Shown in pieces: positions 6,900 through 59,239 of a stretch of 64,000 nucleotides of DNA; positions within the stretch are counted from its first letter, which is position 1, and each line of letters opens with the position of its first letter. Source of the DNA: Methanobacteriota archaeon. Its GTDB lineage: Archaea > Undinarchaeota > Undinarchaeia > Undinarchaeales > Undinarchaeaceae. The translations under genes and the position numbers were made by a program. The DNA lies in NCBI GenBank assembly GCA_002687935.1, contig NZBN01000002.1:102592-166591 (forward strand), written 5' to 3'. The notes under the pieces are model-generated. The model saw only the letters and a program-made list of their open reading frames with translations. It had not been told where the DNA came from and did no database searches.

Positions 6900-7502
6900 T
6901 CAGTATTCCACACCCCAGCGACCCATAACACCGCGGTCAAATGGATGTTTTTCTCTTTGAAGAACTGTAACATAATCTGCCTCAGCTCGGATTTCTTCAG
7001 GAGCACCCCTACCTGTAAGAACTAGCTCAGTGGACTTGCTTTTGTTCTTTAACATTTCCAAAACATCCTCAGTTTTGATATATTTGAAACTGAGAGCAAC
7101 ATTTATTTCATCAAGAATAACAAGTCCAGAGTCTCCAGAGGATGTGACTTCTTTTGCGAGCTCAAGTGCGTCCTTGGAACTACTCACCATTTCAGTGCTA
7201 GTCATAAAACAATCTCTGCAGCTTCCACATGAATAATCCTTGTCCTTTTTGTACATCTCAGAGTAAGTACATTTTTTTCCAAATTGTTTTATTGTAAAAT
7301 TAGGCATAAAAGTCTCCGACGCCATGTACTCCCCAACATAAGTTCCCCCTTTCAGAAACTGTATCATGTAAACTTTTATGCCGTGTCCGATTGCACGTAA
7401 TGCCAATCCGAGAGCCGCAGTTGTTTTTCCCTTGCCATCTCCAGTATACACATGTACTAAACCAAGCCCAGTTTTTGCATCGCCTGTTTCCCCAAACCTC
7501 AT
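6900..7502 (-). CDS. cobO: Cob(I)alamin adenosyltransferase, CobO/BtuR type
   Basis: 200 aa. A P-loop GDGKGKTT at residues 21-28 (the inverted-orientation ATP site of this family) and the C-terminal ITVLQREKHPFD-type motif (VTVLQREKHPFDRGVMGRWG). It adenosylates corrinoids to make coenzyme B12. The start overlaps the stop of the class II ribonucleotide reductase gene by 4 bp (ATGA), so the two are translationally coupled: the enzyme making the cofactor is produced with an enzyme that uses it. A four-cysteine insertion (CTYSEMYKKDKDYSCGSCRDC, about residues 85-105) suggests a metal site seen in archaeal members. Confidence 0.93.
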   Translation of the reverse strand: MRFGETGDAKTGLGLVHVYTGDGKGKTTAALGLALRAIGHGIKVYMIQFLKGGTYVGEYMASETFMPNFTIKQFGKKCTYSEMYKKDKDYSCGSCRDCFMTSTEMVSSSKDALELAKEVTSSGDSGLVILDEINVALSFKYIKTEDVLEMLKNKSKSTELVLTGRGAPEEIRAEADYVTVLQREKHPFDRGVMGRWGVEY

Positions 7503-9550
7503 AGACTGTCGCCGGCAGATAAAACTTGATTCTGGTGACTTCCCTCCCGATATACGGTGATTCCCTTACATCCACTCTTCCATGCAAATACCAGAGAATC
7601 ATTTATTTCCTTCAGTGTTGCTGTGTTTTTCAAATTTGCCGTCTTTGAAACTGAATTGTCTACATATTTTTGAAGGGCTGCCTGAATTTTGATATGCCAT
7701 TCAGGGGGTATGTCAAGAGAACTAACAAAAACATCGTGAACCTTTTTTGGAACTTCGGTGAAATTTTGGATTGAGCCAGTCTTTGCAATCTCGGCCATCA
7801 AGGCAGGAGAATAGAAACCGCCATCCATAGCAATCTTCTCGAAGATTGGGTTCGTATATACAAAACGACTGTCCCCAAGAACAGTCATAACATATGAAAT
7901 CGCAAAATTTGGTTCACAGCCGGAAGACACACCTGCAAGAATACTGATAGTTCCCGTAGGTGCAATTGCAATGCAAGTTGCATTCCTCATACGCCTCTTA
8001 TTTTTATGATGAATAGAGCCTTCCCAGGCCGGAAAGGTTCCACGATCCTTTGCCAGTATTTCTGATGTATTATACGCAGTGTCTTTGATATATTTCATAA
8101 GTTTCTCAGCCATTGCAAGACCTTTTTTCGAATCGTATTTTATGTCAAGCATATAGAGCATGTCAGCAAACCCGAAGATGCCAAGACCTATCTTTCGTGT
8201 ACTCTTTGTCGCGAATTCTATGTCGTGATTTGCATAGCTGGCAACATCTATGGAATTGTCAAGGAATCTAACTGCTGTCCTGACTGTCTGCCGGAGAAGA
8301 CTCCAGTCAATATCACTCCAGTCAGACTTCACCATTGCAACCAAATTTATTGAACCCAGATTACAACTTTCATTGGGAAGAAGGGGAACCTCCCCACAGG
8401 GGCTTGTTGCTTCAATCTCCCCGAGGTGTTTGCAAGGATGTTTCTTATTTATCTGATCTATAAAAACAATGCCGGGATCCCCTGTGAGCCAGGCACTGTG
8501 AACTATTAAATCAAAAAGGTCCCTTGCCCGGACCTCTCTGTGCTTCTTTTTTGTGTTAGGGTCAATAAGGTTGAATTTTCCATCCTTCATAACAGCCTTC
8601 ATAAAATTGTCAGTTATAGCAACAGATATGTTAAAATTGCTGAGCCTTCCAAAGCGGTTCTTTGAGCTTATGAAATCGAAAATATCTGGATGGTCAATGC
8701 GGAGAATTCCCATATTGGCTCCTTTTCTTCTACCACCTTGTTTTATGGCATTTGCAGAACTGTCAAAAACATCCATAAAGGCAAGGGGACCAGCTGCAGT
8801 ATCTGCACCGCCTGCAACCATACCCCGTTTTCCACGAAGCCTTGTAAATGAGAAGCCAGTACCCCCACCATTCTTGTTTACAAGAGCAGCAGTCTGAAGA
8901 GTTCCGAATATACCGTTAATCGAATCCTCTATTGGAAGAACAAGGCAGGAAGATAATTGATTCATCTGAGTTCCTGCGTTTGTTATAAGTGTACTACTTG
9001 GGAGAAAGTAGAGATTTTTCATCATCTCATAAAATTCCGTCTCAGTTTTCTTTATAGATTTTGAGCCATATTCTTTTTCAGCCCCTGCAACGGCTTTTGA
9101 AACACGCTTGAGAAGCTGTTGAGGAGTCTCTGTAATTTTTCCTTTATAATCTTTGAGAAGACATCTTCCTTTAAGGACTTCGAGAGCGTAAGTTGAAAAG
9201 TTAAGATTGCTTTCCTTGAAACTCTCACCAAGAACAAATTCATGTTCAGTTCTTTCTTTCTCTCTCTCATGTCTGAAAAGAATATATGCCTTTGCCGTTC
9301 TGTAATGACCGCCCTCAACGAGAGCTTTCTCAACAACATCCTGTATAGCCTCAACACTTAGGACTTTTCCAGAATACTTAGTTCGAAGAGATTTTACAAC
9401 TTCCTGACCTATTGAATAGGCCATCTCCCGGTCTTTGCCGGCAACAGACTGTGCGGCATTCCAGATAGCGTCCTTAATCTTCCCTGGCTTAAAAGGGACA
9501 AGCTCCCCAGTTCTCTTCTTTACTCTGGATAACTTAGAAGTTTTTGCCAT
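7499..9550 (-). CDS. nrdJ: Adenosylcobalamin-dependent (class II) ribonucleotide reductase, ATP-cone type
   Basis: 683 aa from the ATG at 9550, chosen because a TATA box lies 25 nt upstream (an in-frame ATG at 9565 is too close). N-terminal ATP-cone at about residues 8-98, then the 10-stranded catalytic barrel. The reducing cysteine pair would be C202 (SSCLVLPIEDS) and C396 (NESCNLGSINL), and the thiyl-radical cysteine C385 within SPCGE. The residue two before C385 is Ser383, where Asn is usual in this family. PTGTISILAG marks the phosphate-binding loop. The protein ends shortly after GCKGITVYREGS and lacks the C-terminal zinc-ribbon/cysteine tail that normally re-reduces the active site. Followed by cobO with a 4-bp overlap. 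Confidence 0.93.
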   Translation of the reverse strand: MAKTSKLSRVKKRTGELVPFKPGKIKDAIWNAAQSVAGKDREMAYSIGQEVVKSLRTKYSGKVLSVEAIQDVVEKALVEGGHYRTAKAYILFRHEREKERTEHEFVLGESFKESNLNFSTYALEVLKGRCLLKDYKGKITETPQQLLKRVSKAVAGAEKEYGSKSIKKTETEFYEMMKNLYFLPSSTLITNAGTQMNQLSSCLVLPIEDSINGIFGTLQTAALVNKNGGGTGFSFTRLRGKRGMVAGGADTAAGPLAFMDVFDSSANAIKQGGRRKGANMGILRIDHPDIFDFISSKNRFGRLSNFNISVAITDNFMKAVMKDGKFNLIDPNTKKKHREVRARDLFDLIVHSAWLTGDPGIVFIDQINKKHPCKHLGEIEATSPCGEVPLLPNESCNLGSINLVAMVKSDWSDIDWSLLRQTVRTAVRFLDNSIDVASYANHDIEFATKSTRKIGLGIFGFADMLYMLDIKYDSKKGLAMAEKLMKYIKDTAYNTSEILAKDRGTFPAWEGSIHHKNKRRMRNATCIAIAPTGTISILAGVSSGCEPNFAISYVMTVLGDSRFVYTNPIFEKIAMDGGFYSPALMAEIAKTGSIQNFTEVPKKVHDVFVSSLDIPPEWHIKIQAALQKYVDNSVSKTANLKNTATLKEINDSLVFAWKSGCKGITVYREGSHQNQVLSAGDSL

Positions 9551-9570
9551 ATTTTGTATAGGCAATATTG

Positions 9571-9579
9571 ATATTTAAA
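9571..9579 (-). promoter_or_regulatory. TATA box for nrdJ-cobO
   Basis: TTTAAATAT on the minus strand, centred 25 nt upstream of the nrdJ ATG at 9550. It overlaps the space just after the zinc-ribbon gene, so nrdJ-cobO has its own promoter downstream of the upstream nrd genes. Confidence 0.6.
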
Positions 9580-9807
9580 CTAAGAGTCGCACTTGCTCAT
9601 TCCACACTCAGGATTTGTACAGGAAGAACAGCCCTGTTCAACTTTTAGAGTATTTTTTCCACAATTTGGACATTTTGCAAGGGAAGCTTCATCAGTAGAC
9701 TCTTCTCCATCAGCAGAATCTGTATCAGAAGTCACTTCTTCTATTTCAGAGAGACTTTCCACTTCCTGTAGAGAAATTGTAGCTTGTCCGAATTTAATCA
9801 CCATCAC
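9580..9807 (-). CDS. Stand-alone zinc-ribbon protein resembling the C-terminal tail of class II RNR
   Basis: 75 aa from GTG 9807 (or 74 from the ATG at 9804). The first 45 residues are acidic and probably flexible. The last 30 hold eight regularly placed cysteines or near-cysteines: KCPNCG, QGCSSC, PECGMSKC. This CPxCG...EGCxxCxxCGxSKC pattern is the C-terminal extension of class II reductases, which neither reductase in this window carries. The start overlaps the stop of the upstream reductase (TGATG), with a G-rich Shine-Dalgarno just upstream, indicating coupled translation. Inferred role: thiol-exchange arm acting in trans for one or both reductases. A generic zinc ribbon cannot be excluded. 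Confidence 0.75.
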   Translation of the reverse strand: MMVIKFGQATISLQEVESLSEIEEVTSDTDSADGEESTDEASLAKCPNCGKNTLKVEQGCSSCTNPECGMSKCDS

Positions 9808-12314
9808 TTAACACCCCCTAAGTCAATCTTTCCAGATTTTACTGCATGATAAACTGTAGTCAGCCGACCATCTGCAAGAGATATTATACTGTCTCCTTTG
9901 AGAGTCTGCTTCTTGCCATCTTCAGAAGCTATTTTGAAGATCTTGTTCTTGAAATCCTGGAATTCTGAAGATTTGCTTCCAATACTGAGAATGGGGTAAC
10001 GACTCCCTTCCCTGTATATTGTTATACCTTTGAGACCCTTTCTCCATGCCTCAAGATACATGTTTGAAATCACCTCAGGCTCTATATCCTCAGGAAGATT
10101 ACAAGTGGATGAAATGCTGTGGTCTATGTATTTCTGGCAAATGGACTGAACCTCTATTCTCTTCTGCGGAACAATGTTATGAGCTGTTCTAAAGAAATGT
10201 TCAGGAAGTAGCCCCTTCAGAGAATCATCCGATTCCAGATTTTCAACTTTGTCAGAAAGTCCTTTAATATCCAAATAAGCCTGAACAGTTCCATGAAATA
10301 CTTTGAAAATTTTATTTCCGAAGGATTCTGAACGTCTTGTATAGTAGAGAGCAAAGATTGGCTCAACTCCGCCACTTACACCCATATAGTTTTTATCTCC
10401 GTCTTTAAAACCAAGAACTATATTTGAAATTGAACCAGTGGGGGCTATTGAAAGAAGTGCAATATTTCTAAGACCTTTTTCCTTAATGATTTGTTTTGTT
10501 TCTTCATCCAAGCTTTCCTGGAAAAAGGGATTTTTAGAATATTTCTCATAGTCATAAATAGCTGAGCTTCCTTTTTCCTCTGCGAGATGTGCAGAAGTTC
10601 TGTAAATTGTATTTGCGATGCGGCACATAACTTTCTCTATAATTTCAAGAGCTTCATCAGAATCATATCCAAGGCCAAGCTGATTCAAAAGGTCTGCAAT
10701 CCCCATAACACCGATACCGAGTCTGCGGGTTTCTCCGGCGGCAATTCTCTGACTCTCGAGAGCATTGAGGCTCTCATTCCATGTAACAACATTGTCAAGG
10801 AATCTTGTCAGATTTTTTGCAGAATGGTCGAGTCTCTCAAAATTAATTGAGGCATTATCAGTATATCCCTTGTCCACCATTCTTGAGAGATTTATAGAAC
10901 CTAAGTTGCAGGCACCTCCATCTTCAAGAGGAACTTCGCCACAAGGATTCGTTGAGCTTATGGGACGTTCGACATAGTTTGAAGGAGAATACTTAGTCAT
11001 AGAAGACCAGAAAATAAGTCCTGGTTCAGCAGTCTGATAATTTCCCTCAATGAAAAGATCCCAGACTTCTCTTGCCTTAACCAAATTTCTTACTTCCCCT
11101 GTATCATCTGATGCAAAATATAGTAAGAAATCACCAGAGTATTTGACAGCCAAGTCATAATCTTTGTTTGTTTCTAGCGAGTAATCACCATAAATATCTC
11201 TCTTTTTGATATCTTCAAGATCTGAAACATTTACCTTAAGGTCGTAATCACTGTGCAGTTTTTCATTGAGTGAGTCTATAGAGTCGAAATCCCCGAGTAG
11301 CTCGTATTCAGAAACATCTTTTGAAGGCACCCCATGGGAATAATTAAGAGCAAGAGTCTGAGGAGCTTTCATAACCGTTCCCTTCGGCTTTTTATAAAGA
11401 AGTAATTTATCAGAATCATGACTTGTTTGCTCGTCAACTGCCTGCATAAATTCATCTGAAACTTTTATACTTATATTTGCGAAACGGATTTGAGTATTGT
11501 CACGGACTTGTTTCTCAATTATTTCCAGCTGAGCATCAGTAAACTTGCCTGACCAGCTACACTGCTCAACAATTTGCTTAGTAACCCAGTTAGAAACCTT
11601 CTTTACTTTTAGGAAGTCCATAATGTCCGGATGCTTGACATCCAGAGTAAGCATAAGAGCACCTCTTCTTCCAGACTGACCAATTAGACCAGTAGTTAGT
11701 GAATAAATATCCATAAAAGAGACTGCCCCTGTAGATGTGTCAGCGGCGTTGTGGACCACAGCTCCCTTTGGACGAAGGGTGGATACATCAATCCCGATTC
11801 CCCCTCCATAAGATTCAGTTCTCGCGCACTGATATGCGGCATCATATATTGACTCTATACTGTCTTTTTTAATGAGAGCAACAAAGCAATTTGCAAGTGT
11901 TTTCAGGCGATAAAGATCTCCGGCTCCTGCGAGAACTCTCCCACCAGGAACATAATAACCATTATATAAATCATTGTAAAATTCAGACGCCCATTTTTCT
12001 CGCCCCTCATCAGAATCTTCAAGGGAAGCAATGAAGGCAGAAAGTCTTGCATAAACATCCTCTGGCCTCTTATCAACAAGATTTATGTCCAAATCCTTTA
12101 GATAATATTTTTTCTCGAATATGTTTTTTGCAAGTTCATTTCCGCAAAGATAGTCTGTAGAGTGGAGGGGAAGTGTCCCGTCTGCCTGTTTTTCCTTGAC
12201 ATATGAAAGAAGTTTTTTATAAGTCTGAACCGGTTCTTCACCAACTTTTTTAGCAAGATTGCTATCAAAATCAAACATATTAGCATAGCCATTAAGTGTT
12301 TCAGATTTTTGCAT
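9804..12314 (-). CDS. nrdJ: Adenosylcobalamin-dependent (class II) ribonucleotide reductase, without ATP-cone
   Basis: 836 aa. Catalytic features: C143 (LANCFVAL) and C469 (GACNLGSINL) as the reducing pair, N456-C458-E460 in NPCGE as the radical site, SIAPTGSISNIV as the phosphate loop, and KGITIYREGS near the C-terminus. There is no N-terminal ATP-cone; the first 100 residues are a different helical region. An insertion of roughly 150 residues lies between about 255 and 420. The C-terminus ends LTTVYHAVKSGKIDLGGVK with no cysteines, so the redox tail is missing and probably supplied by the next gene. Stop overlaps that gene; start is 2 nt from the stop of the NrdD-like gene, forming a three-gene operon. 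Confidence 0.92.
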   Translation of the reverse strand: MQKSETLNGYANMFDFDSNLAKKVGEEPVQTYKKLLSYVKEKQADGTLPLHSTDYLCGNELAKNIFEKKYYLKDLDINLVDKRPEDVYARLSAFIASLEDSDEGREKWASEFYNDLYNGYYVPGGRVLAGAGDLYRLKTLANCFVALIKKDSIESIYDAAYQCARTESYGGGIGIDVSTLRPKGAVVHNAADTSTGAVSFMDIYSLTTGLIGQSGRRGALMLTLDVKHPDIMDFLKVKKVSNWVTKQIVEQCSWSGKFTDAQLEIIEKQVRDNTQIRFANISIKVSDEFMQAVDEQTSHDSDKLLLYKKPKGTVMKAPQTLALNYSHGVPSKDVSEYELLGDFDSIDSLNEKLHSDYDLKVNVSDLEDIKKRDIYGDYSLETNKDYDLAVKYSGDFLLYFASDDTGEVRNLVKAREVWDLFIEGNYQTAEPGLIFWSSMTKYSPSNYVERPISSTNPCGEVPLEDGGACNLGSINLSRMVDKGYTDNASINFERLDHSAKNLTRFLDNVVTWNESLNALESQRIAAGETRRLGIGVMGIADLLNQLGLGYDSDEALEIIEKVMCRIANTIYRTSAHLAEEKGSSAIYDYEKYSKNPFFQESLDEETKQIIKEKGLRNIALLSIAPTGSISNIVLGFKDGDKNYMGVSGGVEPIFALYYTRRSESFGNKIFKVFHGTVQAYLDIKGLSDKVENLESDDSLKGLLPEHFFRTAHNIVPQKRIEVQSICQKYIDHSISSTCNLPEDIEPEVISNMYLEAWRKGLKGITIYREGSRYPILSIGSKSSEFQDFKNKIFKIASEDGKKQTLKGDSIISLADGRLTTVYHAVKSGKIDLGGVK

Positions 12315-14125
12315 TATTTTTTCCTCCCCTCAAATTTGATATATTTTGAACCTGATTTCTGCGCCTTATCCAAAAGATTCTGAAGACCACCAGATTCTGG
12401 AACTGGAAGTGACTGTAAAGCTCCCCCCTCGAGAAATGGAAGTAAGCTAGACTCAGATAAAAGCTTATTGGATGCATCGAGCTCCGAGGAAGCCCAAAAG
12501 GAAGGAGTGTAAGCACCAATTTTTGATGCGGCATTATAATTTATTGAATCCACTTTAAAAAATCTCTCCAGAATTTGTGTAGCCGGGCACCCTGCTATTT
12601 GAAAATCCAGACCGCTTTGCGCTCTGTATTCTTCGGCATTTTCCTTCATCCTTCCAAGAACTTTGCGACCGAAGTCTTGGGCAGTTTTTTCAGATAACTG
12701 AGAACCAGTTACAAGTTCTACAAATTCATTCATCCCAGTTATTCCAAGTGAAAGTGGTTGGATATCCGGAATCAAATAAGACTCGTCGTCAAGAATTTTT
12801 TGCTGAAGAAACGGTAGAAGATTTCCTTCCATACTTCGATGAACGACTTCTCTTTTTAGGAAAAGTATGTCCTTTGCCGCCGCCATTCTCTGATCCAGAA
12901 TAGTAAAAATCCTAGCCTCATCACTGCCAGAATCATATGCAATTTTAGGAAGATTGAGAGTGACAGTTTGAAGAACTCCTCCACGTGAAACTTCACTCTT
13001 AGGATAATTGAAAACATACGATGAGTTTTGATATGTAAGACCTTCCTGATTTCCAAGAACGAAATGAGGAGTCTGGAATTTTTCTGCAAGTTCAAGTGCC
13101 TTGGAAAGTAAGTCCTCAGAAGGAGAATCCCCAAGGAAGAGATTAAGTTGAGGATAGTCAAAGGGCTTTCCTGCATAATCTCCCTGAATATAAATATCCA
13201 GGACAGCCATAGCAATGGATTTTGACTCTTCAGAATAGTCAGAGTAAACACCTTTAGTGGAACCGCCTGAAGAAACTGCATCAGAAGAGGCAAGATTTTT
13301 AGGAATCTCAAAATGCAAATCAATTGTAGAAGTCATAGTCTGACCCCCACGAGTTACATACATGTGGCTCATTTCAAAAACGAACATCTGAACCAGTTGT
13401 TTTATTTTTGTATAATCGAGACCTTTGACATATGGCGCAAGAAGAACATTGAAGGCTATGAGACCCTGACTCCCTGAGCAATTTATCTGTGCAGCAGATA
13501 GAACTCTAGAAGCCTGGAGGAAGGCCACATCAGAAGCCTTTGCAGGACCAGCGACAGGAGCGAAGAGTCCAAGTCCGTCAACTTTGAGACCATTTCTTAG
13601 GAAGGGTCTGAGATCATGTGAAAGGCAGTAAGGTCTTGTTGCAAAATAATTCAGCCGATGAATATGTAAATTCCCACTCATGTGGTCATCAACGCGAGTT
13701 GGCGGAAGTATATTCACATAGGTATATTCTCTTGAAACAAGGTCCGCCATCATTTTATGAACTGTTTCAGGATTATGTGGAATTTTTTCAGTCTCAGATG
13801 GACCTGTAAAAATTAGCTCACGGACATCATAGACAGGCATTCCAAGACGAGTGTACCTCATTCTGGCGGATTCGTAACCGTGTTCAAGAAGCTTCACGTT
13901 GACTATCTCCCTTATCAGAGGAGCAGTTAGATACTTTAAGTGCATTCTAGAGACATCGTGCTCAACTTCCTGAGAGATTGACTTGGCGATTGACTCATCT
14001 ATACTTGTCTCCTCCACCAGAGACCTTACAATCTTCTCCTTACTAAAGGGAACGAGAATATTTTGAGATGTCCTGACACGTACGGATTCAGGTTTTTCTA
14101 TTGAAGAGGAAACTTGCGCAGTCAT
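12314..14125 (-). CDS. NrdD-like protein with ATP-cone, lacking the glycyl-radical domain
   Basis: 603 aa. Residues ~13-105 form an ATP-cone (nucleotide-sensing) domain. The rest follows anaerobic class III reductase NrdD: HIHRLNYFATRPYCLSHDL (C167), RGGQTMTSTIDL, LQTVTLNLPKIAY, and a C-terminal GGALQSLPVPES strand-loop. It stops right after SGSKYIKFEGRKK, just where NrdD continues into its zinc site and RVxGY glycyl-radical loop. The segment before VTLNLP, where NrdD carries the catalytic cysteine, reads YVFNYPKSEVSRGG, without cysteine. It is therefore probably catalytically inactive. The ATG at 14125 is preferred over a GTG at 14134 because AAGGTGG lies just upstream. First gene of the operon with the cone-less class II reductase. 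Confidence 0.82.
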   Translation of the reverse strand: MTAQVSSSIEKPESVRVRTSQNILVPFSKEKIVRSLVEETSIDESIAKSISQEVEHDVSRMHLKYLTAPLIREIVNVKLLEHGYESARMRYTRLGMPVYDVRELIFTGPSETEKIPHNPETVHKMMADLVSREYTYVNILPPTRVDDHMSGNLHIHRLNYFATRPYCLSHDLRPFLRNGLKVDGLGLFAPVAGPAKASDVAFLQASRVLSAAQINCSGSQGLIAFNVLLAPYVKGLDYTKIKQLVQMFVFEMSHMYVTRGGQTMTSTIDLHFEIPKNLASSDAVSSGGSTKGVYSDYSEESKSIAMAVLDIYIQGDYAGKPFDYPQLNLFLGDSPSEDLLSKALELAEKFQTPHFVLGNQEGLTYQNSSYVFNYPKSEVSRGGVLQTVTLNLPKIAYDSGSDEARIFTILDQRMAAAKDILFLKREVVHRSMEGNLLPFLQQKILDDESYLIPDIQPLSLGITGMNEFVELVTGSQLSEKTAQDFGRKVLGRMKENAEEYRAQSGLDFQIAGCPATQILERFFKVDSINYNAASKIGAYTPSFWASSELDASNKLLSESSLLPFLEGGALQSLPVPESGGLQNLLDKAQKSGSKYIKFEGRKK

Positions 14126-14176
14126 TTCTACCACCTTAAAACTTTCTTATGTGTATTTTGTGATAATTCAAAAAGC

Positions 14177-14184
14177 TTTAAATA
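14177..14184 (+). promoter_or_regulatory. Shared divergent TATA region, trmB-like gene / nrd operon
   Basis: TTTAAATA on the plus strand inside AAAGCTTTAAATAC. The TTTAAA core is palindromic and reads as a TATA box on both strands, about 50 nt from each start (14125 minus, 14230 plus). Both genes then carry the same Shine-Dalgarno AAGGTGG. A regulator bound here could control both directions. Confidence 0.5.
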
Positions 14185-14229
14185 CATTTTTAAACCATAC
14201 ACACATTAAACCGATTAAAGGTGGGAAAT

Positions 14230-15114
14230 ATGCTAGACCCTGAATTCAGAACACTACTCAAAGAAGAATATGGTTTCAGAGAAAACCACTTAATTTTGCT
14301 AAGCCATTTTATGTCTAATAAAAAAAAGAAACTTTCAGCAGAAAGTCTTTGGACTGAAACTGAAGTTCCTAAAGGAAGGATTTACGAATTTTTAAACGAC
14401 CTTGTTGACTGGGGATTCCTTGAAGTTGAATACAAAAAACCAAAAACCTACTCAATACTAAACCTGAAGGAAGCTCTACAAAACGCCATAAGTAGGAAAG
14501 AACGAAAATTAACTGAGACAGAAAAAAAGACTCTTGAAATGGCAAACAAAATAGAAAAAAGCTGGCGTACAGAAGTCGGAGAAAAAACAGGGAGCATACA
14601 AATTATAAGCAGTCCTGAGGAATTTTACATAAAAGCCCGTGAAATGTTAATGGACAGTACAGAGGCGAAGGTTTCAGAAAGAACACCTCTCCTCTTCCTT
14701 TCTACAGAAAGGAACTCAACATGGAGGAGGAGAACTTATGAGAGCATGATAGATATGACAGAAGCAAAGCGCCTAGATTTGAAATATATATTCTCTCTTG
14801 AAAATATAATAAAAATTGCATCTGAAAATGAAAACGCAGATGAAGTAATAAACAGTTTAAAGGATTCTCTTGAAAACGGCAACCTAACATGCAGATATGT
14901 AGCAGGAACCGGAATTGAGAGCATGCTTATTGTAAAAGACAGAGCACTTCTTGGAATTGTTTCTCCTAAAAGCGGATCTGTGGAAAATGGATTATACACT
15001 GAATCGAAGGAAATGGTGGATTCACTCCACAAGATGTATGACCTTGTATTTGATGAAGCTGAAACCCTTGGAATTAAAACTCTGCAGATATTAGGAAAGG
15101 CCCTGGAAGAATAA
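14230..15114 (+). CDS. TrmB-family transcriptional regulator
   Basis: 294 aa. N-terminal winged helix (about residues 5-85) with recognition region ETEVPKGRIYEFLNDLVDWGFLEV, a helical linker, and a C-terminal effector-type domain like TrmB proteins (TSSPEEF-like SSPEEFYIKAREML, then LLFLSTERNS). The ATG at 14230 has AGGTGGGAA directly upstream; an in-frame GTG at 14221 lies within that Shine-Dalgarno. It is divergent from the NrdD-like/class II reductase operon with a shared TATA region, so control of nucleotide reduction or autoregulation is a reasonable inference. The effector ligand cannot be read from sequence. Confidence 0.85.
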   Translation: MLDPEFRTLLKEEYGFRENHLILLSHFMSNKKKKLSAESLWTETEVPKGRIYEFLNDLVDWGFLEVEYKKPKTYSILNLKEALQNAISRKERKLTETEKKTLEMANKIEKSWRTEVGEKTGSIQIISSPEEFYIKAREMLMDSTEAKVSERTPLLFLSTERNSTWRRRTYESMIDMTEAKRLDLKYIFSLENIIKIASENENADEVINSLKDSLENGNLTCRYVAGTGIESMLIVKDRALLGIVSPKSGSVENGLYTESKEMVDSLHKMYDLVFDEAETLGIKTLQILGKALEE

Positions 15115-57222: not shown

Positions 57223-58425
57223 ATGGCAACCGACCTACTGCTAGCGGTAACTTATTTCGCAACCCTTCTTGGATTTGGAGTATTTGTCATGGGATATGCA
57301 GAACGCTGGAAAATACCTCCTGCCTTTTTTCTGCTTCTTGTGGGACTGTTTTTTGGACCGACAATTCTGAATCTTGTCAGCGTCCCGAAGATGGGAGATG
57401 TACCTGACTTTCTGAGAATTCTTTCCTTGGTAATAATAGTCTTTGCTGGAAGCTTCCATCTTAAATTGAGCACTTTTAAAAAAGTGTCCAGAATGGCAAT
57501 AAAATTGGCATTTGTAGGATTTGTAGTATCTGTAATATCTCTTGGAGCTGCCGCGCACTGGATATTTGATATGAGCTGGGCGTCCAGCCTCATTTTGGCT
57601 TCAATAGTAGGAGGAACCTCATCCGCTGCTATATTTACATTTAAGAAGGCACTTGGGGGTTCTGAAGCACTTTCCATACTAACGGTTGAATCCATATTCA
57701 CAGACCCACTTACAGTTCTTGTTCCTGTACTTCTAATGAATGCATTTATGTCAGGTGCAATACAGAGCTCGACACAATTCCTTGGCAGTTTCTGGCAGAT
57801 GATTTCAGCAGGAATTGGAACAGGAATAATTATTGGTTTCCTTGCAGCAGAGCTCTTCAAGCGAGAGGAGCGGGAGCTTTCACCAATATTGAGCTTCGCT
57901 ATAGCAATGATAACTTATTCTCTGGCAAGAAATGTTGGAGGCTCAGGAATACTTGCTGTCGCAATATGTGCAATAATACTCGGTAACAGGAATATACCAT
58001 TCAAAAAGGACATACTGAAATTTGAAGACTCTATGTCTACAATACTGACAATATCTGTATTCACCTTACTTGGAGCTCAGATAGACCTGATTTTAGAGAG
58101 TGCTATTTTACTGAAGAGCCTTCTGTTCATAATTATAACAATATTCGTAGTCAGACCAATTATGACCTATACAATACTTTACAAAGACAAAGTTCCGAAA
58201 CGAGATCTTTTCCTGATAGCATTTACAGGTCCAAGGGGAGCGGCTTCAGCGGCCGTCGCTGCAATGCCAATAGCATATGCAGCCCAGTATGGAGCAGAGG
58301 CTTTTGTAACTGAAGCCCAGACCATATTACTTGTGACCTTCCTTGTGATACTGGCGACACTATTTTCAAGCACAGTGGTTGATTATGTTTATTCAAAAAT
58401 TTTCGGACACAGGACTAAGCCCTAA
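57223..58425 (+). CDS. Cation:proton antiporter, CPA1/NhaP type
   Basis: 400 aa, about twelve membrane helices (AFFLLLVGLFFGPTIL, IVIFAGSFHLKLSTF). The transport-site helix reads VESIFTDPLTVL, with Asp but Thr in place of the usual Asn of the ND motif; the later FTGPRGAASAAVAAMP is typical. Exchanges Na+ or K+ for H+. A TATTTAAC element 25 nt upstream. The 3' end overlaps the nuclease gene by 11 bp. Confidence 0.9.
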   Translation: MATDLLLAVTYFATLLGFGVFVMGYAERWKIPPAFFLLLVGLFFGPTILNLVSVPKMGDVPDFLRILSLVIIVFAGSFHLKLSTFKKVSRMAIKLAFVGFVVSVISLGAAAHWIFDMSWASSLILASIVGGTSSAAIFTFKKALGGSEALSILTVESIFTDPLTVLVPVLLMNAFMSGAIQSSTQFLGSFWQMISAGIGTGIIIGFLAAELFKREERELSPILSFAIAMITYSLARNVGGSGILAVAICAIILGNRNIPFKKDILKFEDSMSTILTISVFTLLGAQIDLILESAILLKSLLFIIITIFVVRPIMTYTILYKDKVPKRDLFLIAFTGPRGAASAAVAAMPIAYAAQYGAEAFVTEAQTILLVTFLVILATLFSSTVVDYVYSKIFGHRTKP

Positions 58426-59239
58426 GTAATGATTTAGCTTTTTCAACAAGCTCTTCTGCGCGTGACTTTTTAAGACCGGTCTTTTTACTTAGAGAGTCCG
58501 GTCTGCAGGAAGCAAGCTCTTTGACAAGAAGTATATTATTAGCCATTATGAGCTTGCGCTCTTTTGCACTCATAGAAATAATATTTGCAGGATAAGCCTG
58601 TGTTTTTTCAATTAGTTCGGGAAGAGAGCCACCTTTAGGAAAATTCCAGCCAATTAATTTCATTTTCTTAGCGGCAGAATATTTTTTTGCGTGATTTGAA
58701 AATTTTGTATTGTTAACAAGCCAGATGTTGTTGTAAGGATTTGGACCTTTTCGAATGTCGTCGAGAACTGCCCAAGTAGTCAGAACAGTTCCGAGACCGG
58801 TAAGACGGTGGGGATTTATGTGATGTTTACACTCTATCAGAAGTTTTCGCCCATCCTTTTCAAGAAGAGAATCTATCTGATGCTCAATAACTTCCCCCTG
58901 AACAATTACATTCCATCGAGTTTTATAGCCGAGCTCTCTGAAAAGATGTGTAACAAATCGTTCAAACTGACTGTGTTCAGGATCGAGTTCTGCTATTGCC
59001 TGCTTCAAATTATATTTGTATTTATGTTGTTTAGATTCGTGCTTGTCAATAAGAGTCAGTGTCTTTTTCAGAATTTCTCTGGTTCGCATCCCCTCATAAA
59101 CACCACGAGCAACTTCATCCGCGATTTTGACTGCTACATCTTTTGAAAGACCTGAACGAAGGCAGGTCCCGACGATTTTGCTTTTTTTGAAAACTGCGCG
59201 ACTTCCATCCGCCTTTGTAATCTGAACCATACTAGCCAT
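58415..59239 (-). CDS. ATP-cone / Mrr-like endonuclease / HhH fusion protein
   Basis: 274 aa. N-terminal ATP-cone (VQITKADGSRAVFKKSKIVG, residues ~5-90), then a PD-(D/E)XK nuclease with catalytic Asp in EHQIDSLLEKDG and E-x-K in LLIECKHH, then a C-terminal helix-hairpin-helix (SLSKKTGLKKSRAEELVEKA). The ATP-cone normally senses dATP/ATP in ribonucleotide reductase; here it may gate a nuclease by nucleotide level. Known domain pairing in archaea, function not established to me. Start may be ATG 59239 or 59230. Confidence 0.85.
   Translation of the reverse strand: MASMVQITKADGSRAVFKKSKIVGTCLRSGLSKDVAVKIADEVARGVYEGMRTREILKKTLTLIDKHESKQHKYKYNLKQAIAELDPEHSQFERFVTHLFRELGYKTRWNVIVQGEVIEHQIDSLLEKDGRKLLIECKHHINPHRLTGLGTVLTTWAVLDDIRKGPNPYNNIWLVNNTKFSNHAKKYSAAKKMKLIGWNFPKGGSLPELIEKTQAYPANIISMSAKERKLIMANNILLVKELASCRPDSLSKKTGLKKSRAEELVEKAKSLLRA

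Follow-up and report, generated by a model that had tools for sequence, protein, structure and literature searches.

The window analysed here, i.e. the whole stretch of 64,000 nucleotides, comes from an archaeon of Undinarchaeota type and contains an operon on its reverse strand that begins with the gene for a 603-aa protein related to class III ribonucleotide reductases (RNRs), the pseudo-NrdD P0001 (12314..14125). It is followed by NrdJ P0002 (9804..12314, 836 aa), a class II, i.e. B12-dependent, RNR, by a 74-aa Cys-rich open reading frame (ORF; 9580..9804), by a second class II RNR, NrdJ P0003 (7499..9565, 688 aa), and by the ATP:corrinoid adenosyltransferase BtuR/CobO (6900..7502; PF02572, E 2.9e-54). 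The stop codon of P0001 and the start codon of P0002 share 1 nt (TAATG). In the two congeners that we compared with the window genome, Undinarchaeales SRR5007147.bin71 and UBA55, these genes overlap by ~20 nt, such that 3/3 congeneric genomes couple the pseudo-NrdD gene to that of NrdJ. Both NrdJ genes, the Cys-rich ORF and BtuR are part of this coupled operon in all three. BtuR/CobO overlaps P0003 by 4 nt.

Both NrdJ proteins score above the cut-off of the NrdJ_Z profile for class II RNRs and carry the finger loop (NPCGE in P0002, SPCGE in P0003), the CNLGSINL motif and the redox cysteine pair (NCFV and SCLV motifs). P0003 has an ATP-cone of its own (E 8.5e-20). P0002 has none according to Pfam, which agrees with the description of this gene in an earlier note on the same DNA. 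The 74-aa ORF overlaps P0002 as TGATG, is conserved in the 3 species and reads CPNC...GCSSC..PEC...KC, which resembles the C-terminal redox domain of class II enzymes encoded as a gene of its own. Such an arrangement is known from the split NrdJa/NrdJb and its C-terminal CRD (PMC4520616, PMC5704485; CRD/NrdJb are described in the latter). The operon differs from it by the extra pseudo-NrdD gene upstream and by the unusual shortness of the CRD-like ORF. Since the ORF has no Pfam match, its assignment as NrdJb rests on the cysteine pattern and the gene order; it lacks a TSCPD domain, and a search of the phylum for TSCPD-type NrdJb gave nothing over the cut-off.

Divergent from P0001 lies a gene for a TrmB-type helix-turn-helix (HTH) regulator (14221..15114, forward strand), which occupies the same position in both congeners. 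As the three congeners are closely related, this could be passive synteny. The divergent intergenic region holds an imperfect inverted repeat (14131..14224) with 31-nt arms at 71% identity, which is a possible operator candidate and could also have arisen by chance.

The frame of P0001 comprises 603 codons with zero internal stops. Pfam places an ATP-cone at residues 17-91 (13853..14077, reverse strand; E 1.5e-6), with a score of 29 bits that exceeds the cut-off of 25.8 by a modest margin (33 bits in the genome-wide search). Residues 114-597 match the NRDD family (PF13597, E 3.1e-80) up to profile position 503 of 562, which implies that the Zn/glycyl-radical part is absent; the protein ends with SKYIKFEGRKK. 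The score against the NCBIfam NrdD equivalog model is 244.7 bits and thus below its cut-off of 326.35 bits. An AF2 model, for which 36 window and locus proteins were aligned, was confident (pLDDT 86.5, pTM 0.84). Its best Foldseek matches in the PDB were class III RNRs (9dca, E 1.6e-27), whereas class I RNR matches were weaker by ~20 orders of magnitude. P0001 shares 41-47% identity with live archaeal NrdDs, and its nearest live relatives belong to a subgroup with a QCC finger loop from Altiarchaeota. Neither an HTH nor, in the Pfam search, a Zn ribbon was found in P0001, such that its layout differs from that of NrdR. Viral contigs, considered as a possible source of P0001, gave distant relatives only (25-32% identity), and a viral origin was rejected.

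We compared the catalytic and regulatory motifs of P0001 with those of 25 canonical archaeal NrdDs. The register was taken from a profile alignment to PcNrdD, and the functional roles of the motifs were taken from PMC9669993 and PMC11226230. The invariant finger-loop QCC of the canonical enzymes aligns with QNS in P0001 (loop residues 361-386, 12968..13045, reverse strand), where N367-S368 replace the catalytic CC; both congeners likewise carry NS at these columns. Two elements that act at the substrate in NrdD (PMC11226230) are also lost. At the site of the NxN flap (residues 110-120, 13766..13798, reverse strand) the ENAN motif is replaced by SETEK, SESEG and SEREE in the three species, and the TPAE glutamate is gone in P0001, which reads CPAT (T516). 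The aspartate of HxHD is missing (HIHR), and the Zn/glycyl-radical domain is absent altogether. The loop-2 motif of the specificity site, E251...R259-G-G-Q-T (13334..13375, reverse strand; aligned to loop 2 of PcNrdD), is kept. It is unchanged across the three species, as are ten of ten near-invariant positions of the cone. The beta-A cysteine C167 is retained within the genus as well. By its sequence P0001 is thus a class III RNR stripped of its chemistry. The earlier note had described a 603-aa NrdD-like protein with an ATP-cone that stops before the glycyl-radical region and lacks the catalytic cysteine, which the profile, alignment and fold comparisons bear out. It did not include the lost NxN flap, TPAE glutamate and HxHD aspartate, nor the 74-aa ORF, P0003 and BtuR/CobO.

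Despite these losses the protein is maintained by purifying selection and is no pseudogene. The intact frame is present in three species, and dN/dS between the window genome and the congeners is 0.076-0.084 at a dS of about 1.2; the values of the RNR and BtuR neighbours are 0.04-0.06. Within P0001 the cone evolves most slowly (dN 0.039) and the C-terminal half fastest (dN 0.12).

We also searched the window genome, which is 87% complete, for genes that could complement P0001. With the separate glycyl domain of genome G003 as query, no homologue was found in the window genome or in the two congeners (G000, G004, G005), and NrdG was not found among the radical-SAM matches of the window genome, within the limits set by its completeness. 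Besides lipoyl synthase (LipA), these matches comprised only a SPASM-like protein and, below the threshold, a fragment that looks like an incomplete version of that protein. Only two ATP-cones exceeded the cut-off genome-wide, those of P0001 and P0003, such that no NrdR was detected. A 274-aa protein elsewhere in the window (58415-59239, reverse strand) seems to consist of a degenerate ATP-cone ahead of a restriction-endonuclease-like domain; in the genome-wide search its cone stayed under the Pfam cut-off.

P0002 is a member of a small archaeal NrdJ family with 52-62% identity. In three relatives at 60-62% identity an ATP-cone is fused to the enzyme (E 2e-19 to 3e-22), and in a quick tree P0002 clusters with them (SH-aLRT 94), a grouping that would be compatible with transfer of the cone onto a separate protein. 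Five further relatives (L098, L125-L128) lack a cone, and no NrdD-like gene adjoins them, which shows that this type of NrdJ can manage without a neighbouring pseudo-NrdD. Read from the sequence, the Cys-rich ending of these five lies on a downstream gene, which in L125-L128 has the same pattern as the 74-aa ORF and in L098 runs off the contig. In the unrelated genome G181, the single genome of its family, the genes for NrdJ, BtuR and a pseudo-NrdD follow each other consecutively, the final one being cut by the contig end. Separately, an insertion that resembles an intein interrupts the catalytic NPC/GE site of the NrdJ at L129:1059-4478.

Dead NrdDs are not confined to the window genus. In a survey of up to 394 archaeal genomes plus genome_contigs, in which ORFs were sorted by a strict test for the finger-loop cysteine and by the glycyl domain, we found 32 non-redundant archaeal pseudo-NrdDs. 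All 32 keep the cone, and each of the ten that were scanned exceeded the Pfam cone cut-off. A tree of 58 sequences requires five changes between live and dead forms, each forced by strongly supported branches, which indicates that pseudo-NrdDs arose at least five times in archaea as conserved class III pseudoenzymes that retain the allosteric domain. P0001 clusters with the N. limnaeum homologue and with the pseudo-NrdDs L137, L146 and L151, which belong to one family (SH-aLRT 93). The N. limnaeum homologue has kept the second cysteine (QNCSY) and has no glycyl domain, whereas the window genus has lost both cysteines. A vestigial glycyl domain is still present in L146 and L151, which makes the loss look stepwise.

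The neighbourhoods of the pseudo-NrdDs frequently contain regulators. Directly upstream of 17 of the 32 we found a divergent gene of Lrp/AsnC type, whose identity was confirmed by Pfam, compared with 2 of the 24 NrdDs that have the cysteine (Fisher p 5e-4, with no correction for common descent). In two lineages, Bathyarchaeota and genome G116, an HTH is fused to the cone, and the Bathyarchaeota fusion lies upstream of a live nrdD. Behind the N. limnaeum homologue, a spacer of 3 bases leads to a DUF4443/HTH gene. Outside the window lineage, pseudo-NrdDs are associated with HTH regulators or live NrdDs and not with class II RNRs, G181 being the exception. The nearest ones from outside Undinarchaeota, L137, L146 and L151, adjoin Nre and TiaS genes, i.e. 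neither an HTH gene nor an RNR.

Taken together, P0001 is probably a selectively kept nucleotide-sensing regulator of B12-dependent dNTP synthesis, where sensing and regulation are derived from homology and gene context. By analogy with its relatives, ATP or dATP would bind to the N-terminal cone and a dNTP probably to the retained loop-2/specificity site. Binding would then shift the conformation or the oligomeric state of P0001, as in NrdD and NrdR. The output could be either control of operon transcription through a DNA-binding partner, e.g. the divergent TrmB-type protein, or action in trans as an allosteric subunit on the co-translated, cone-less P0002. The two outputs carry similar weight: the family-level data lean towards transcription and the local gene order towards P0002. 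We narrowly favour transcriptional output because archaeal pseudo-NrdDs repeatedly have an HTH regulator adjoining or fused to them.

For the transcriptional output, P0001 would control RNR transcription like NrdR together with an HTH protein, which acts in trans here and is fused elsewhere. We consider this possible, though only tentatively so. The fusions in Bathyarchaeota and G116, the frequent Lrp/AsnC genes, the HTH gene next to the N. limnaeum homologue and the lack of a detected NrdR cone in the window genome all point in this direction. Against it, P0001 has no HTH of its own, TrmB proteins usually bring their own ligand domain, and the Lrp/AsnC association was counted with shared ancestry ignored. 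The Nre/TiaS neighbourhoods of the nearest relatives and the modest margin of the cone match argue against a regulator reading in general.

The allosteric subunit in trans, which the earlier note had proposed, would lend its cone to P0002 within a complex kept inactive by dATP. We regard this as a slightly more doubtful possibility. It fits the ORF overlaps of 1 nt or ~20 nt in three species, the fused cones of the closest P0002 relatives and the operon of G181. However, the gene pairing seen in 3/3 congeners is not shared by the five cone-less relatives, which have no NrdD-like gene next to them, the second NrdJ of the operon has its own cone, and pseudo-NrdDs elsewhere keep other company. 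In addition, class III barrels dimerise in a geometry other than that of class I and II (PMC9669993), which makes a homologous P0001-P0002 heterodimer unlikely. Well supported in the proposal is the more general part, a dead NrdD paralogue that does not decay and is probably regulatory, as judged from the purifying selection, the cone in 32/32 pseudo-NrdDs and the coupling in all congeners.

Two further readings fared worse; the earlier note had named decay and a radical acceptor. A decaying gene, left over after class II reduction had taken over from class III, would agree with the visible stepwise loss and with the failure to find an activase, but is very improbable given a frame that stayed intact in three species at a dS of about 1.2, a dN/dS of 0.08 near that of the working neighbours and a cone that is the slowest-evolving part. 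Least probable of all is residual catalysis or a role as radical acceptor that relies on some other residue or on a separately encoded glycyl subunit, for which the conserved C167 and the split glycyl-domain ORFs of related archaea (G003) could be quoted, since the finger-loop cysteine, the flap and the TPAE glutamate are absent and no glycyl ORF or NrdG occurs in the available sequence.

How does the probable sensor P0001 compare with known systems? With class III NrdD (PF13597) it shares the ATP-cone, the barrel, the loop-2 motif and the fold; it differs by the lack of the thiyl cysteine, the NxN flap, the TPAE glutamate, the Zn site and the glycyl loop, and no activase was found. NrdR is an RNR repressor composed of a Zn-ribbon and an ATP-cone (PMC9110341). 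Its likeness to P0001 lies in the proposed role of a cone-based sensor that controls RNR genes, and the HTH-fused pseudo-NrdDs show an analogous layout of DNA-binding domain plus cone. Pseudo-NrdDs are, however, built on a dead RNR barrel, their DNA-binding part is an HTH instead of a Zn ribbon and often a separate gene, and beyond the cone there is no sequence relation to NrdR.

Catalytically dead subunits are known among class I RNRs, namely the R1 homologues of betaherpesviruses and yeast Rnr4. They resemble P0001 as RNR pseudoenzymes retained for a non-catalytic role and differ from it in class. We found no paper that describes a class III RNR pseudoenzyme, and a literature search on RNRs of Undinarchaeota gave nothing.

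More broadly, and with less confidence than for P0001 itself, we suggest that archaea may repeatedly have turned dead class III RNRs into ATP-cone sensors that control dNTP synthesis with a fused or adjoining HTH protein. They would constitute a counterpart of NrdR, which in the window lineage would be translationally coupled to B12-dependent RNRs. The presence of similar dead copies in many archaea is suggestive of a widespread, undescribed nucleotide sensor, which would have been overlooked because databases file such proteins as NrdD. If pseudo-NrdDs sense ATP/dATP, this would explain dNTP balance in archaea without NrdR and offer a case in nature where the allostery of RNRs can be studied apart from their catalysis. 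An NrdD annotation in an archaeal genome can also not be taken as anaerobic nucleotide reduction.

The survey yielded a number of further observations. Four pseudo-NrdDs of one family (L217, L218, L220, L227) lie between the genes for TiaS and Nre, an archaeal DNA-repair protein family. Downstream of pseudo-NrdDs from three archaeal families we found a small DUF5615/Mut7-C (PIN-like) ORF (L222:5335-5652, L226:6074-6499, L228:8453-8773). Several archaea and two viral contigs have a split class III RNR, in which the glycyl-radical domain of NrdD forms a separate small ORF (L005:3153-3332 in G003; L082, i.e. G003:C19:55766-55930; L056:2472-2879; L076:12692-12895; L164:645-1202; L090:4258-4719; L094:4340-4783). 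In G003 the NrdD and the glycyl ORF are in the same frame with TAA-AAA between them, and a second, free glycyl copy occurs elsewhere in the genome. Some NrdDs from Methanomicrobiales/Methanoregula (L057-L061, L070, L071) keep the QCC loop and, where inspected, also ENAN and TPAE. They end with '...TRDITVSLKQFHEMRPGKKS' and have no Zn/glycyl domain; a glycyl domain was not detected on the fetched DNA of these loci either. Apparently live NrdDs occur as tandem pairs in one Altiarchaeales genome (L027:5302-7611 and 7692-10121) and in Jingweiarchaeum (L053:7647-10010 and 10014-12074). Finally, the length of certain NrdD ORFs from Archaeoglobaceae and further archaea (1100-1900 aa; L063-L067, L069, L073, L076) suggests the presence of inteins.
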